This document shows, one piece after another, positions 35,236-46,755 of a stretch of DNA of 64,000 bases. Under the pieces are notes generated by a model. It was given only the letters and a program-made list of their open reading frames with translations, made no database searches and had not been told where the DNA came from. Made by a program: the position numbers and the translations under genes. Every line of letters begins with the position of its first letter. Within the stretch, counting starts at the first letter, position 1. Location of the stretch: NCBI GenBank assembly GCA_021651055.1, contig JAJHOH010000001.1:558001-622000 (forward strand). The letters run 5' to 3'. The DNA comes from Candidatus Manganitrophus morganii (GTDB lineage Bacteria; Nitrospirota; Nitrospiria; SBBL01; Manganitrophaceae).

Positions 35236-35313
35236 CAGTCTCCTCCGCGTAGAATTTCAGTGATTGTATTTTATTCTAGCGGATTTAGGAGATTCGGTAA
35301 AGTGGGAGAGAGC

Positions 35314-35450
35314 AGGGTGTAGGGGGCAGGGTGATAGAGGCTAGGGTGATAGGGGGCAGGGGGTAGGGTGTAGGGAAAGAAGAGAAGAGAAATAGTAATA
35401 GAGGGTTGAATCTTTAACTACACCCTATCACCCTACCCCCTACACCCTAT
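35314..35450. repeat. inverted G-rich repeat array, copy A
   Basis: Left arm 35314-35375 is a tandem of AGGGTGTAGGG, AGGGTGATAG and GGGGCAGGGGGTAGGG units. Right arm 35418-35450 is the reverse complement type (CTACACCCTATCACCCTACC...). Together they form a large stem with a loop of about 40 bp. The rlmI stop codon lies within 4 bp of the right arm. No gene is inside. Same family as 39924-40354 and 45577-45667. Confidence 0.75.
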
Positions 35451-38571: not shown

Positions 38572-39969
38572 TTACGTTCGATCGATTTTGTGCTTTGAAA
38601 GAATATCGTGGAGGGCCTGCCGTGAAATTCCAAGGACGGATGCCGCCTGGGTGACATTTCCCCCCAGACGCGCCAATGCCTGCTCTACTAACTCCCGCTC
38701 CAGCTTTTCTCTTGCCACCTTGAGCCTGGGAAGGGGCGCGGCTTCATTCGGTACGGCCAATTCCAGGTCTTCCGGGGCTAAATGAACCCCGTCGGTCATC
38801 ACGACCCCCCTCCTGACCTTGTTTTCCAGTTCACGGACGTTGCCGGGCCAGGAATGGGCCGTGAGCGCCTCAACGGCCGCAGGGGTTAACCCTTTGACCT
38901 TCTTCCCCGTTTCTTCCGAAAAACGGGCGATGAAGGCACGGGTGAGAACGAGAAGATCCCCGTTTCGCTCACGTAACGGGGGAACCGAAATAGAAACGAC
39001 CCCTAACCGATAAAAAAGGTCTTCTCGGAAAGCGCCGCTCGCCATCCTCTCCTTCAGATCGCGATTTGTCGCGGCAATCACCCTCGCGTCGATATGAAGA
39101 CTCTCCCTTCCGCCAACCCGCTCAATCGTCTTCTCCTGAAGAAAACGGAGCAGCTTCACCTGAAGGCCCAATCCAAGCTCTCCGATTTCGTCCAGAAAAA
39201 GGGTCCCCCCCGCCGCATATTCGATCCGGCCCTTCCGCTGCGCGTGCGCCCCCGTGAACGCCCCCTTTTCATGGCCGAAGAGCTCGCTTTCCAAGAGGTT
39301 CTCCGGAATCGCGCCGCAATTGATCGCGATAAAAGGACCGGCCTTCCGGGCGCTATGCTGATGGATCGATTGAGCGACCAGCTCTTTCCCGGTGCCACTC
39401 TCGCCGGTAATGAGAACAGGGATATCGGTCGTTGAAACTTTGCGGATCGTCGCGTAGAGCCCTTCCATCACCCGGCTGGTGCCGATCATCCCTCCCTCCT
39501 GGGTCGGGCGTTTCTTTAATTGACGATTCTCCTCTTCCAACTGAAAGAGGTGAATCGCCCGCCGGAGGGTTACCCGGATCTCGTCGAGATCGATCGGCTT
39601 GGTGAAGAAATCATAGGCCCCTTGCTCGATCGCCTTGAGGGCATTCGCCCGGTCGGAGTTGCCGCTGACAATGACAATTTTGACCCGGGGGTCGATCTCC
39701 AGCATTTCGGAGAGGGCCAGCAACCCCTCCGTCGCCTCTCGGGGATGAGGCGCCAGGCCGAGGTCGAGGGTCACCACCGGAGGGAGCTCCCGCCGGAAAA
39801 GATCGATCGCGCCCCTTCGGTTCTCGGCCAAAAAAATCTCATACTCGTCGGCCAGGGCCCATTTCATCTGTTGGCGGATCGTCTCATCATCATCGACGAT
39901 GAGGATCTTCGGACGAGATGAACCAGGGGGTAGGGGGCTGGGTGTAGGGGGTAGGGTCGATGATGACAT
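38572..39969 (-). CDS. prsR: PEP-CTERM-box sigma-54 response regulator PrsR
   Basis: 465 residues. Receiver domain (about 20-140, [29 protein letters not shown]), AAA+ domain (about 165-395) with Walker [13 protein letters not shown], the GAFTGA loop KGAFTGAH that contacts sigma-54, and Walker [12 protein letters not shown] Fis-type helix-turn-helix follows at the end ([20 protein letters not shown]). Residues 5-16 ([12 protein letters not shown]) are encoded by the left arm of a repeat element and are not expected in the family. Next to prsK but separated from it by a four-helix-bundle gene. Confidence 0.92.
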
Positions 39970-42778: not shown

Positions 42779-42787
42779 AGCAACTCG

Positions 42788-42900
42788 TGAAAAAGGGCAA
42801 ACTATCCGAGAGGGTAGGACGCAAAGCCAAGAGACCGATGAGTAGGGGATCCACTTCCCACGGTTCGTCTGGTTGCCATGACGATGCCGGCGCATCTTTA
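42788..42900 (+). ncRNA. cyclic di-GMP class I riboswitch (GEMM), aptamer
   Basis: The core elements are in order: GGGCAAAC, stem CTATCC-GAGA-GGGTAG, GGACGCAAAGCC, a second stem, then GGTTGCCATGA. An intrinsic terminator follows before the fibronectin-type gene. The structure is established for GEMM-I RNAs, which bind c-di-GMP. Whether binding promotes or blocks termination cannot be read from sequence alone. Confidence 0.85.
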
Positions 42901-42976: not shown

Positions 42977-45217
42977 ATGCAGACCTCATTAATCAAGCGA
43001 AGCGCTCTGATGATCATCGGGATGATCCTTCTCCTGAATTGGAAAACGCCTGCGATGGCTGCGGATGCCTCCCTCTCCTGGGACACCAACACGGAAAACG
43101 ATCTGGGAGGGTATAAACTCTATTATGGAACCTCCTCCGGCAGCTACGGCGCCCCCGTGGACGTCGGCAATCAAACATCTTTCACTGTAAACGGTTTAAG
43201 CAGCAGTCAGACATATTATTTTGCCGTTCGCGCATACAACACCTCGGGGGCGGAAAGCGGCTACTCTAATGAAGTCAGCAAGAGCTTCGGCGACACCGCC
43301 GCGCCGACCCTCTCCGCCATTGCGGCCGGCAGCATCACCAGCGCCGGAGCAACCGTCAGCTGGAGCACCAACGAAGCGGCCACCTCCCAGGTGGAGTACG
43401 GCGCCACGACCGCTTACGGCTCCCTCTCTGCGCTCAACTCAACGCTCGTCACCAGCCATAGCCGTGTGTTAAGCGGCTTGAACCCTTCAACGACCTATCA
43501 CTATCGGGTCATCAGCAGAGATGCCGCCGGGAACACCGGCACCTCGGGGGACCGCACCTTCACCACCACCGCCGCGCCCGACACCACCGCGCCGGCGATT
43601 TCCGGAATCGGCGCCTCGAATATCACCACCACCGCGGCCACGATCAGCTGGACGACCAATGAGAGTTCCGACACCCAGATTCAATATGGGACAACCACTT
43701 CGTATGGAAGCTCCACGACGCTCGATACCACCCTGACCACCAACCACAGCCAACAGGTCACCGGCCTTCTCCCCGCCACCCTTTATCATTATCGCGTCCG
43801 CGGCCGGGACGGCGCCGGAAATCTGGCCACCTCGGGAGATCGAACATTTACCACCGCCGCGCCCCCCGACACCACCGCGCCGACCCTTTCTAATATTGCC
43901 GCCAGCAACATCGCATCGACCTCCACGGTGATCACCTGGAGCACCAATGAAACGGCGACCTCCCAAGTCGAATATGGAACGACGACATCGTATGGTGCTT
44001 CCTCCGCATTGGGCGCCACGCCGGTCACCAGTCACAGCCGGACCCTTTCCAGCCTGAGCCCCGCCACCACCTACAACTACCGGGTCATCAGCCAAGATGG
44101 GGCCGGAAACATCTCGGTCTCCGGAAATAGAACCTTCACCACCTCCGCCACCCCCGATACGACGGCGCCGGTTCTCTCCGGTATCGCCGTGGGGAACGTT
44201 GCTTCCACTTCGGTTGTCATTTCCTGGAGCACCCATGAAGCGGCCACCTCCCAAGTGGAATACGGACCGACCACGGCGTACGGCTCTCTCAGCACATTAA
44301 ATACCACCCTTCTGGCCGCCCACAGCGCTTCGTTGACGAACCTCCAGCCGGCCACCACCTACAACTATCGGGTCATCAGCCGGGACGCCGCCGGAAACAC
44401 CGCCACCTCCGGGAACAATTCGTTTACAACGGCCGCCCCGTCATCTTCCGATACAATCGGGCCGGTTCTGTCGGCGATCGATGCGCGGGAGATGACCACG
44501 GAGGGGGTGACGATCCACTGGGGAACCGATGAGCCTGCAACAAGCGAAGTGGAGTATGGCCTGACCGCGGGATACGAAAACAGCACCGGGGTCAACGCCA
44601 CCCTGTCGAACAGCCACAGCCGGATCCTTTCCGGCCTCCAATCGAACACGGTCTATCACTATCGTGTCAAAAGCGCCGATGCCCTGGGCAATCTCTCCGT
44701 GTCGGCCGATCATACTCTCACGACAAACCCGCCCACCGATTCCACCCCTCCGGCGGACGTCGAAAACTTCACCGCCGTCCCGGGAACCCAGGTGATCACA
44801 TTAAGCTGGGTCAATCCGTCCGATTCCGACTTCGTCGGGGTCCGCATCGTCTACCGGACCGATCGGTTCCCGAACGGCACTGAAGACGGTGAGATCCTCG
44901 GGGACTTTTCGGGACGAACCGATGAGAGCATCACCGTCCTCCATGCAGGGTTAGAGGAGAACGTGACCTACTACTATTCGGCCTCATCGTATGATAACAA
45001 CGGGAACTATCAACACACGGCGCACGCTTCCGCAATGCCTTTCGGGTTTTCGACGGGCGCCTCGAATGCGGACGACGGCGGCGCTGGGGGCGGTGGCGGC
45101 TGCACGATGGTTTCGCCGAGCTCCGGAGCCGCTTCTGGACCGGGCCATTCGGCCGACATGATCGGGCTGATTCTGGTCCTCTCGCTTGCGGCGCTTCGGA
45201 AGGGAATCAAGAAATGA
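42977..45217 (+). CDS. secreted protein with seven fibronectin type III-like domains
   Basis: 746 residues. Signal peptide about 1-28. One FN3-like domain (about 30-108) is followed by five near-identical repeats of about 90 residues, each starting D-T-x-A-P and containing W-S/T-T-N-E... QVEYG... TYNYRVISRDAAGN. A sixth differing segment (about 590-690) follows. The C-terminus has GGAGGGGGC, then a hydrophobic stretch ending RKGIKK. A Gly-rich Cys-containing tail with a membrane segment is reminiscent of C-terminal sorting signals. Expression is under a c-di-GMP riboswitch, so it is probably a biofilm adhesin or scaffold. Confidence 0.88.
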   Translation: MQTSLIKRSALMIIGMILLLNWKTPAMAADASLSWDTNTENDLGGYKLYYGTSSGSYGAPVDVGNQTSFTVNGLSSSQTYYFAVRAYNTSGAESGYSNEVSKSFGDTAAPTLSAIAAGSITSAGATVSWSTNEAATSQVEYGATTAYGSLSALNSTLVTSHSRVLSGLNPSTTYHYRVISRDAAGNTGTSGDRTFTTTAAPDTTAPAISGIGASNITTTAATISWTTNESSDTQIQYGTTTSYGSSTTLDTTLTTNHSQQVTGLLPATLYHYRVRGRDGAGNLATSGDRTFTTAAPPDTTAPTLSNIAASNIASTSTVITWSTNETATSQVEYGTTTSYGASSALGATPVTSHSRTLSSLSPATTYNYRVISQDGAGNISVSGNRTFTTSATPDTTAPVLSGIAVGNVASTSVVISWSTHEAATSQVEYGPTTAYGSLSTLNTTLLAAHSASLTNLQPATTYNYRVISRDAAGNTATSGNNSFTTAAPSSSDTIGPVLSAIDAREMTTEGVTIHWGTDEPATSEVEYGLTAGYENSTGVNATLSNSHSRILSGLQSNTVYHYRVKSADALGNLSVSADHTLTTNPPTDSTPPADVENFTAVPGTQVITLSWVNPSDSDFVGVRIVYRTDRFPNGTEDGEILGDFSGRTDESITVLHAGLEENVTYYYSASSYDNNGNYQHTAHASAMPFGFSTGASNADDGGAGGGGGCTMVSPSSGAASGPGHSADMIGLILVLSLAALRKGIKK

Positions 45218-45397: not shown

Positions 45398-45426
45398 TTG
45401 ACGGGAAAAAAAGAATATAGTATTTT
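45398..45426 (+). promoter_or_regulatory. probable sigma-70 promoter
   Basis: TTGACG, 17 bp, TATTTT. Start would be near 45433, about 90 bp before the second riboswitch aptamer. A hairpin GGGTTACGC/GCGTAACCC (about 45464-45502) lies in the leader. Confidence 0.5.
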
Positions 45427-45520
45427 ATATCGTTATTAACACCACATAAGTCGAAGCGTCAGAGTGGGTTACGCTGAAGAATCTCACGCCGATGGCGTAA
45501 CCCAAGTTACATTTCGACCT

Positions 45521-45697
45521 TTGCTCAGAGCAAACCCATCGAAAGGTGGGGACGCAGAGTAACGGGGCTAAAGAAAGGGTGTAGGGGGTAGGGTATAGGG
45601 GGTAGTGAGAGGGGATAGGGTTTGGATTTTCTACACCCTACACCCTGGTTTATCACACCCGACACCCTTTCCTCTTCGCCTTCTTCCATGCCCGCCG
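45521..45697 (+). ncRNA. cyclic di-GMP class I riboswitch, interrupted by repeat array C
   Basis: GAGCAAACCC-ATCGAAAGGT-GGGGACGCAGAG and ACGGGGCTAAAG match the first half of GEMM-I aptamers. The second half appears to be CTTCTTCCATGCCCGCCGAG. Between them lies the repeat array at 45577-45667. The array has inverted arms, so it would fold as an added hairpin in the distal stem. A terminator follows. Confidence 0.65.
45577..45667. repeat. inverted G-rich repeat array, copy C
   Basis: GGGTGTAGGGGGTAGGGTAT on the left and CTACACCCTACACCCTGG plus GACACCC on the right; no gene inside. It lies in the middle of the riboswitch leader. Confidence 0.75.
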
Positions 45698-45730
45698 AGC
45701 CGCCAAAGGATTCACTTGGCGGCTTTTTTA
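45698..45730 (+). terminator. terminator behind the second riboswitch
   Basis: AGCCGCCAA at 45698-45706 pairs with TTGGCGGCT at 45716-45724, followed by a T-run. About 60 bp before ATG 45793. Confidence 0.85.
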
Positions 45731-45792: not shown

Positions 45793-46755
45793 ATGCAGGC
45801 GAGATACTTGGCTAAATACACGACAGGAATCTTAATCGGCTTCGTTCTTCTTCTGCTGGGAGCAGGGGTTTCTCAGGCGGCGGTGCTCTTCTCTTCTACT
45901 GCCGAATCCGGAACGTGTGACACCGGCGTGTCGACCAGTATCTGGGATTATACTGGGAGTGGCGGTCCTGGCGGCCCCCTGGCTGCTCGGATGTTTTATC
46001 GCTGTGACACTCCAGTTCCTAATTCCGGTCGCTCCAAATATTTCCGCGTCGACACTGTCAATCTCATGCAGGGCACCTGGAATGTTCGTCATGTCAACCG
46101 AATCAATCTAACACCGGGCGTAACATACTACCTCGGGGCATTTTTTAGATTCGATAGAATCCTTGGTCTTGATATTTGGCATGATGCAAAAATCGGTAAT
46201 GATGGGCCAGATAGTTTCGATAAGCTCTTTGAGTCTGATGGATCGGTCAGGTGGATTATTAATTCTGGATGGATGAATGGCGGGTTTACGCCACCGGCAA
46301 CAAATACATGGGACCATAAATTTACGTTTAACATTTCTTTGCCGGGTGCTTCCGGCACTTGCACAAATTGTGGCACTGATACATTAGTCCATAACTTTTC
46401 ACCATATACTAGAAGTAATCCCTTCCTGTGTGACTACGAAAAATGGTATGCCGTGGTGATGGCAATTACGCCATCCACCGGAGGAAGTTCAACGAATGGT
46501 CGACTTGAGCTTTTTATTAATGGCACTAAAGTTAGCTCTCACACCGTGAAGACACAAGACACGTCCACGCCGTACATTGAGTCGTTCCAATACTCTGGTA
46601 CAATCGCACAGCCAAGCTATGATTCCCCGCCGCACTTTCGGAAAATAGATTATTTTATTTTTTCTGACAGCCTAGCCGATGTTCAAAACGCGGGGTTGAT
46701 GAGCGATCCCGCAGCGGGGGCACCAGCTCCTCCCACAAACCTAAGGGTACAATAA
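45793..46755 (+). CDS. secreted polysaccharide-lyase-like or lectin-like protein
   Basis: 320 residues from ATG 45793; GAGGTC lies upstream. Signal peptide about 1-31, ending SQA. The mature domain (VLFSSTAESGT..., YYLGAFFRFDRI, DKLFESDGSVRWIINSGWMNG, WYAVVMAITPSTGG, GRLELFINGTKVSSH) has the sequence style of concanavalin-like jelly-roll lyases or lectins, but no catalytic set is certain. The C-terminus ends APAPPTNLRVQ, as if an FN3-type domain had been lost or was never present. It is behind a c-di-GMP riboswitch, so probably a biofilm-phase matrix protein. Confidence 0.65.
   Translation: MQARYLAKYTTGILIGFVLLLLGAGVSQAAVLFSSTAESGTCDTGVSTSIWDYTGSGGPGGPLAARMFYRCDTPVPNSGRSKYFRVDTVNLMQGTWNVRHVNRINLTPGVTYYLGAFFRFDRILGLDIWHDAKIGNDGPDSFDKLFESDGSVRWIINSGWMNGGFTPPATNTWDHKFTFNISLPGASGTCTNCGTDTLVHNFSPYTRSNPFLCDYEKWYAVVMAITPSTGGSSTNGRLELFINGTKVSSHTVKTQDTSTPYIESFQYSGTIAQPSYDSPPHFRKIDYFIFSDSLADVQNAGLMSDPAAGAPAPPTNLRVQ

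Follow-up and report, generated by a model that had tools for sequence, protein, structure and literature searches.

A riboswitch aptamer of the GEMM-I clan (c-di-GMP-I type) lies at positions 45518-45709 of the window, the stretch of 64,000 nt analysed here from a 4.29-Mb single-contig genome with Candidatus Manganitrophus as its closest named relatives, and carries a palindromic array of heptad repeats in the distal part of its P3 stem. Judged by its sequence, this is a real riboswitch with a structure-preserving repeat in the P3 arm. As a rather likely account of the whole, we suggest that it senses 3',3'-cGAMP (GEMM-Ib-like) and acts on transcription, and that the array was acquired by exchange with a paralogous riboswitch, leaving the sensor and the switch unchanged.

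Anatomy of the aptamer and its array

The window genome is called G000 and that of Ca. Manganitrophus sp. GAC4 (Nitrospirota) G004; G001, G002, G003, and G005 are other congeners. The features of the leader and its surroundings are as follows.

42786-42880, plus strand: separate canonical (G20) GEMM-I (RF01051, 57.1 bits), 5' of a fibronectin type III gene at 42977-45217 with five fn3 stretches
45398-45426, plus strand: candidate sigma-70 promoter of the leader, TTGACG-17-TATTTT (consensus scan; stretch kept in G002 and G004)
45518-45523, plus strand: P1 5' strand, CCUUUG (partner 45704-45709; 98.5% of cells paired in 33 sequences)
45524-45529, plus strand: J1/2, CUCAGA, with the last base A equivalent to G20 of Vc2 (aligned to RF01051/RF03167)
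45535-45550, plus strand: P2 hairpin, CCCAUC-GAAA-GGUGGG, with a GNRA tetraloop (both-side change in 6 of 6 pairs, 33 sequences)
45551-45556, plus strand: binding core GACGC and the next A (aligned to the Rfam consensus)
45557-45568, plus strand: P3 5' strand, up to the receptor (partner 45690-45701; 9 pairs, 100% of cells paired, both-side change in 3)
45568-45573, plus strand: CUAAAG, left side of the tetraloop-receptor-like motif and left edge of the insert (Rfam consensus CUAAgg; the same in G000, G002, and G004)
45571-45689, plus strand: distal P3 segment, 119 nt (15 nt in the orthologues, AAGCTGAAAGGCCAT)
45576-45668, plus strand: palindromic heptad array (TRF, fold)
45690-45709, plus strand: P3 3' strand, J1/3, and P1 3' strand, GCCCGCCGAGCCGCCAAAGG (Rfam alignment, covariation)
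45698-45729, plus strand: intrinsic terminator, AGCCGCCAA...TTGGCGGCT and T-run (full-leader fold; shares 45702-45706 with J1/3 and P1)
45793-46755, plus strand: regulated gene for a 320-aa protein (ORF; N-terminal hydrophobic signal-like stretch)

The 5' half of the aptamer (45518-45570) and its 3' half (from about 45688-45690 to 45709) are separated by the 119-nt distal segment. The sequence-only reading had proposed two GEMM-I halves split by a repeat array, and this is borne out, since both halves were found and the relatives have 15 nt in place of the 119. The terminal A of J1/2 we take to be position 20, and the A directly after GACGC is presumably A47. Second-shell positions depart from consensus in the Rfam alignment, namely G48, A49 opposite a C, and an A opposite an A in P3.

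A search pattern built from the core, with J1/2 and P2 omitted, gave 13 matching stretches in genome contigs and matches in 16 of 41 genomes, the window genome counted; viral contigs gave no match to it. Among the 38 distinct pattern rows, 37 are aptamers, with segments of 17 to 129 nt where measurable, and one (L057) is a chance match in coding DNA. The 38 parses reduce to 34 distinct cores and, after removal of a mis-parse (L093, 802), to the 33 sequences used for covariation, with the insert cut out. In this set 99.3% of 759 cells are paired and both-side changes occur in 9 pairs. None of 500 shuffles reached any of the five values, and slid controls were far lower. Thus, P2 and P3 are conserved helices with covariation across the 33 sequences; in P1, three pairs are invariant and both-side changes number zero.

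The Rfam scores of the window copy are low. RF03167 (c-di-GMP-I-GGC), whose gathering score is 59, spanned the entire element with an insert of 115 nt but reached 40.4 bits (E = 3e-8 in 401 nt); RF01051, with a cut-off of 35, gave 30.3 bits (E = 8.6e-4 over all of the genome). RF03167 is the best-scoring clan member for the array copies of G000, at 39-44 bits, all below gathering, and the window subfamily differs from it in having A rather than G directly after GACGC. A standard gathering scan of the window missed the array copy and found as the sole GEMM-I the one at 42786-42880. The covariance comparison with and without the array was made on natural loci, and the filled site scores 30.3 bits, while its array-free orthologues in G002 and G004 score 62.1 bits with the same model and cut-off. 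All four long-array switches of G000 are missed at the gathering threshold. By contrast, the two 78-nt array copies in G004 score 53 bits, above threshold, although a faster genome search gave 32. The array therefore hides the switch from annotation only when it is long. A Moco-II match at 45514-45544 (25.2 bits, gathering 35) and microRNA matches over the array, all under their thresholds, were taken as chance.

The array has a G-rich arm (45576-45625) and a C-rich arm (45631-45668) and is located in the distal P3 stem, just past the tetraloop-receptor-like bases (CUAA...AUG). Folded alone, the array arm has an energy of -54.7 kcal/mol (z = -3.6; 1 of 200 shuffles equally good). The array pairs with itself, and the fold predicted outside the insert does not change when it is removed. 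Earlier claims that the arms are inverted and that the array would extend the helix and keep the fold thus agree with the folding, the second as a prediction; the limits proposed for it, 45577-45667, do contain the array but are slightly too narrow, as it runs from 45576 to 45668. A G-quadruplex motif matches the G4 pattern in the left arm (45577-45602), and the isolated left arm could form a G-quadruplex of -8.4 kcal/mol. We rejected it as the stable state of the arm, as the gquad fold of the leader retains the hairpin.

Filled and empty loci

Four riboswitches of G000 carry the array: locus A is that of the window, B is L008 (3245453), C is L009 (1017891), and D is L010 (3250459). In G004 and G002, locus A has a near-identical upstream region, an identical 5' aptamer as far as CTAAAG, a 15-nt loop segment, and the same 3' half and terminator. 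Compared with these array-free orthologues, the window copy is identical at 52 of 52 positions in the 5' half and 17 of 17 in the 3' half, and the left flanks are 97% identical. Arrays are found in 4 of 7 aptamers of G000, 2 of 7 of G004, and 0 of 17 in the four other congeners (31 aptamers in six genomes, a count of pattern matches only, outside which stands a G005 variant, L163, at the likely locus A). Loci C and D of G004 have a shorter array and A and B are empty; in G002, loci A, B, and D are empty.

It might be argued that the array broke the switch, and that a decaying, nonfunctional riboswitch acquired repetitive DNA by chance. The array is young at locus A, being absent from both relatives, too young to reveal purifying selection after the insertion, and the Rfam scores lie under the cut-off. 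We nevertheless consider decay improbable, with both halves, P1, and the terminator all intact and the array present in four separate riboswitches of G000. Furthermore, the array still pairs with itself in two species despite a change of 48 nt in length. A working riboswitch with a lengthened arm remains the preferred reading.

The inserts within G000 are close to one another in sequence. Those of C and D are identical at 126 of 126 positions, those of A and B at 118 of 119, and all riboswitch arrays of this genome are 97-100% identical to each other, while the best full-length copy outside riboswitches reaches 74%. The inserts of C and D differ from the orthologous inserts of GAC4 by a 48-nt indel, but their flanks match the GAC4 orthologues at 93% and 98% on the left and 100% and 98% on the right. 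The insert junctions are the same in all six array-bearing copies. At locus B, both relatives have GTCC and the 15-nt loop, and G000 has GCCC and the array, so that an adjacent core base has changed as well. Because the arrays are homogenised within the genome and the flanks follow orthology, the arrays have probably moved by local exchange between riboswitches rather than by separate transpositions. From these six copies in two genomes, exchange of the P3 arm between paralogous riboswitches appears the most likely route of spread.

In the simplest history, the palindromic heptad array would have entered the distal P3 loop of one paralogous riboswitch once, in the common ancestor of the window species and Ca. 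Manganitrophus GAC4. After the split, the array-bearing arm may have been copied in the window lineage into two further riboswitches, that of the window included. This copying would be short-tract exchange, with the homology provided by the conserved halves of the aptamer.

Elements of the heptad family also occur elsewhere. The motif, with up to one mismatch, was found at 15 sites in G000 and 7 in G004; G001, G002, G003, and G005 have it at no site, and a reversed control pattern likewise gave none. A search with the 93-nt array returned 49 matches in G000. We inspected 17 loci other than the riboswitches: 11 are two-armed and inverted, and a mechanical ORF scan puts all of these between long ORFs; L029, L032, and L037 have a single arm; L041, L046, and L047 resemble chance hits within coding DNA. 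Nine of the 11 two-armed copies fold at z ≤ -2 and the other two at -1.84 and -1.85; the arm-fold set leaves out the L104 fold (1 of 14), the arm of L104 being folded separately. The window itself has a two-armed element between genes at 35312-35449, which is present at another length in G004 and absent from G002. For the element at L022, the matching site is empty in G004 and G002, with a diverged junction. A clear target-site duplication was not seen at the two filled/empty sites compared, of which the L022 junction is the diverged one. A further heptad element, single-armed, is found at 39925-39956 of the window.

For comparison with dispersed palindromic repeats of bacteria, we take REP, MITE, and STRR-like heptads to be the relevant ones. 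The array resembles them in being short and intergenic, with inverted arms, many copies, and presence or absence between relatives. It differs in its G-rich heptads, in sitting within riboswitches, and, for the two sites that were compared, in the lack of a clear target-site duplication. The sequence-only reading had spoken of a mobile repeat, and this stands in part: the heptad palindrome is dispersed and present or absent at sites, but within riboswitches exchange of the P3 arm is likelier than repeated insertion. Independent insertion of a mobile element into each riboswitch, with hairpin loops as targets, would draw on that dispersal, including the 11 two-armed copies outside riboswitches. 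We think this the least probable of the alternatives considered, given the gap between 97-100% identity among riboswitch arrays and 74% for the best outside copy, the shared junctions of all six copies, and the changed core base beside the array at locus B. Furthermore, neither target-site duplications nor differing junctions were seen. Arm exchange accordingly remains our favoured route.

Nor does the array stand alone: in other species, the P3 site holds inserts of 34-105 nt that are unrelated to it, several of which pair with themselves. At locus C, G003 and G005 have in common another insert, of 101-105 nt (L096 932-1036 and L101 744-858), structured in both (z = -4.7 in G003, as two hairpins, and -2.75), and this two-hairpin insert is a candidate extra RNA domain on the basis of its predicted fold. 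At the likely locus A of G005 (L163 253-362, minus strand; orthology judged from the shared promoter region) there is another insert, a long A+U-rich hairpin with z = -4.6, in an aptamer whose variant core, GAGTCACGG, was missed by the search patterns. Among the 11 nonheptad inserts of at least 34 nt that were folded, seven have z ≤ -2 and four do not (-1.18, -0.81, -0.72, and +0.65). Thus, many sequences are tolerated at the site, and most of them, though not all, pair with themselves. A bolder idea, which we hold to be unlikely as it stands, sees in the distal P3 of this GEMM subfamily of Nitrospirota a natural port for expansion, where unrelated foldable sequences would be plugged in repeatedly and exchanged between paralogous riboswitches via the conserved halves, some of them tuning the switch because the aptamer is completed later or because RNase III or another factor is recruited.

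Terminator, switch, and regulated gene

The candidate promoter of the leader is near chance expectation, with one found in the scan and 0.5 expected. The terminator stem has 11 pairs within 45698-45724, followed by the T-run. The proposal that a terminator and then a secreted-protein gene follow the aptamer is supported, as the terminator appears in the fold, although the consensus terminator scan did not list the one at 45698-45729, and the gene starts at 45793. The 320-aa protein has weak similarity to polysaccharide lyases and ConA-like lectins (Pfam E = 0.029 and 0.15, below the cut-offs) and no match in NCBIfam; its predicted structure, from a two-sequence alignment, has a mean pLDDT of 35.5.

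The full leader has a minimum-energy fold in which the terminator is formed and the P1 5' strand is paired with GAGUAA. When P1, P2, and P3 are enforced, the aptamer excludes the terminator. Since the terminator wins in the minimum-energy fold, binding of the ligand would have to act during transcription. Since the terminator overlaps P1, we infer that the ligand keeps the gene on: in the bound state, P1 (CCUUUG/CAAAGG) would sequester the terminator strand and the gene for the secreted protein would be read, whereas without ligand the terminator would form. The array, being self-complementary and outside the tetraloop receptor, would simply make a long P3 arm, and we propose that the sensor and the switch are for this reason unaffected.

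The energy differences, terminator minus aptamer, are consistent with such neutrality at loci A, B, and D; those of C differ and speak against it. With and without the array, they are -17.7 and -17.7 kcal/mol for locus A and -20.6 and -20.6 for B; with the long and the short array, they are -18.3 and -18.3 for D and -19.4 and -25.7 for C. The G004_3347 and 1086k copies were folded only for this comparison. Equality of this kind lends weak support, because it is largely built into an additive energy model.

The array could instead have a job of its own, tuning the switch by delaying completion of the aptamer or serving as a handle in the form of double-stranded RNA or a G-quadruplex. On its own, the 5' half has a fold of -20.8 kcal/mol with the P1 strand on GAGUAACGG, and this alternative state would persist longer with 104 extra nt to transcribe; there is also the G4 motif of the left arm, and structured inserts recur at the P3 site in other species. 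We regard such a role as unlikely. The alternative helix lacks covariation, the G-quadruplex is absent from the minimum-energy fold, the orthologues manage without the insert, and four of the 11 other long inserts are not clearly stabler than shuffles. As a selected anti-P1, the UUGCUC/GAGYAA helix is at most a candidate: 95.5% of its cells pair but covariation is absent. An array that is neutral for switching thus remains our preferred reading.

Two further features of this locus were noted. Directly 5' of the aptamer, at 45446-45517, there is a hairpin, GGGTTACGC/GCGTAACCC, within TCGAA/TTCGA; it is kept in G002 and G004, with differences of G-U versus Watson-Crick pairing, and folds with z = -2.8. 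The noncoding leader of locus A is about 95% identical between species, while the 320-aa protein is 33% identical to its GAC4 counterpart. The protein behind locus A in G002 looks different (L108, L055, and L094 compared), which would fit a regulated gene that is replaced or diversifies quickly.

Ligand and relation to known systems

The window copy and each of the 37 aptamer rows have A at position 20, so the G20 of RF01051 was not found in any of them, and in our own alignment the A at the equivalent of Vc2 G20 is that of GEMM-Ib. We take it, partly on the same alignment, to correspond to A14 of the Geobacter aptamer.

The genome also offers a possible source of the ligand. There are 33 GGDEF matches in G000; of 30 loci fetched, the active-site motif was readable in 23, and in two of these, L120 (G000:C1:2560579) and L138 (G000:C1:673028), it is GHxxGS instead of GHxxGD. 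GHxxGS is presumably the Hypr signature. One of the two has as its best PDB match, by sequence only, chain 6d9m, an endolysin fused to a GGDEF protein, with the same Ser and 172.8 bits versus 124.5 for the next match. Chain 6d9m presumably belongs to the Hypr GGDEF structure that PMC6456294 describes. The two GHxxGS proteins are thus candidate cGAMP synthases in a Nitrospirota genome, and as the motif was readable in 23 of the 30 loci, further Hypr-like enzymes may exist.

Because of A20 and the GacA-like Hypr GGDEF in the genome, 3',3'-cGAMP is likelier than c-di-GMP, the ligand originally proposed, and is probably what the switch binds. In the text excerpted from PMC6274999, a GEMM-I aptamer with G20A has a crystal structure with cGAMP bound, and the excerpts of PMC6456294 and PMC8835794 describe cGAMP switches of Geobacter that use the GEMM-I fold, sometimes in tandem. 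An ordinary c-di-GMP switch that tolerates A20, with all else as proposed above, seems to us doubtful but worth keeping in mind. Its best family matches are c-di-GMP-I models, the same genome has GEMM-I aptamers of the G20 type, one of them in tandem just upstream at locus C, and position 20 is described in the excerpt of PMC9262584 as a selectivity factor and not a hard filter, so c-di-GMP may still bind. However, A20 is present in every member of the subfamily that was read, and there are the GacA-like cyclase and the G20A structure; 3',3'-cGAMP remains the ligand we favour.

The window copy shares with c-di-GMP-I (RF01051) P1, P2, and P3, the GNRA tetraloop, the receptor bases, the GACGC core, and a terminator-coupled leader of a secreted protein, and it differs in A rather than G at position 20, altered P3 bases, a 119-nt distal P3, and a score below gathering. 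With the GEMM-Ib or 3',3'-cGAMP riboswitches of Geobacter, as described in the excerpts of PMC8835794, PMC6456294, and PMC6274999, it has in common an A at the selectivity position (an equivalence that we assume from our own alignment), a 6-nt J1/2, tandem arrangement at some loci, and a Hypr-like GGDEF; it differs in the Nitrospirota host and the long P3 inserts. The riboswitch family is known, and the arm and its spread appear new to us. Our searches of open-licence papers gave nothing on repeat arrays within GEMM-I arms, on exchange among paralogous riboswitches, or on cGAMP in Manganitrophus, a negative that we put forward tentatively.

The locus amounts to a natural experiment, in which the same riboswitch is found with and without a 104-nt-longer arm in close relatives and the same arm is homogenised across separate riboswitches of one genome. 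With it one could test how long an aptamer may become and still work, and whether recombination drives concerted evolution of riboswitch parts, and it suggests how a signal-sensing RNA can absorb and share new parts. It also marks a blind spot in annotation at Rfam gathering thresholds, for the four long-array switches of G000 though not for the two shorter GAC4 copies. If the ligand is cGAMP, then Nitrospirota with manganese-oxidising relatives would have the cGAMP pathway that is known in metal-respiring Geobacter.

Tandem riboswitches were seen at three of the loci. Locus C has a G20-type followed by an A20-type aptamer (L009 1343-1700), and loci B (L008 1324-1691) and D (L010 1500-1866) have pairs of the A20 type. 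Each tandem is located 5' of FN3-like secreted proteins, and two-signal logic is possible.
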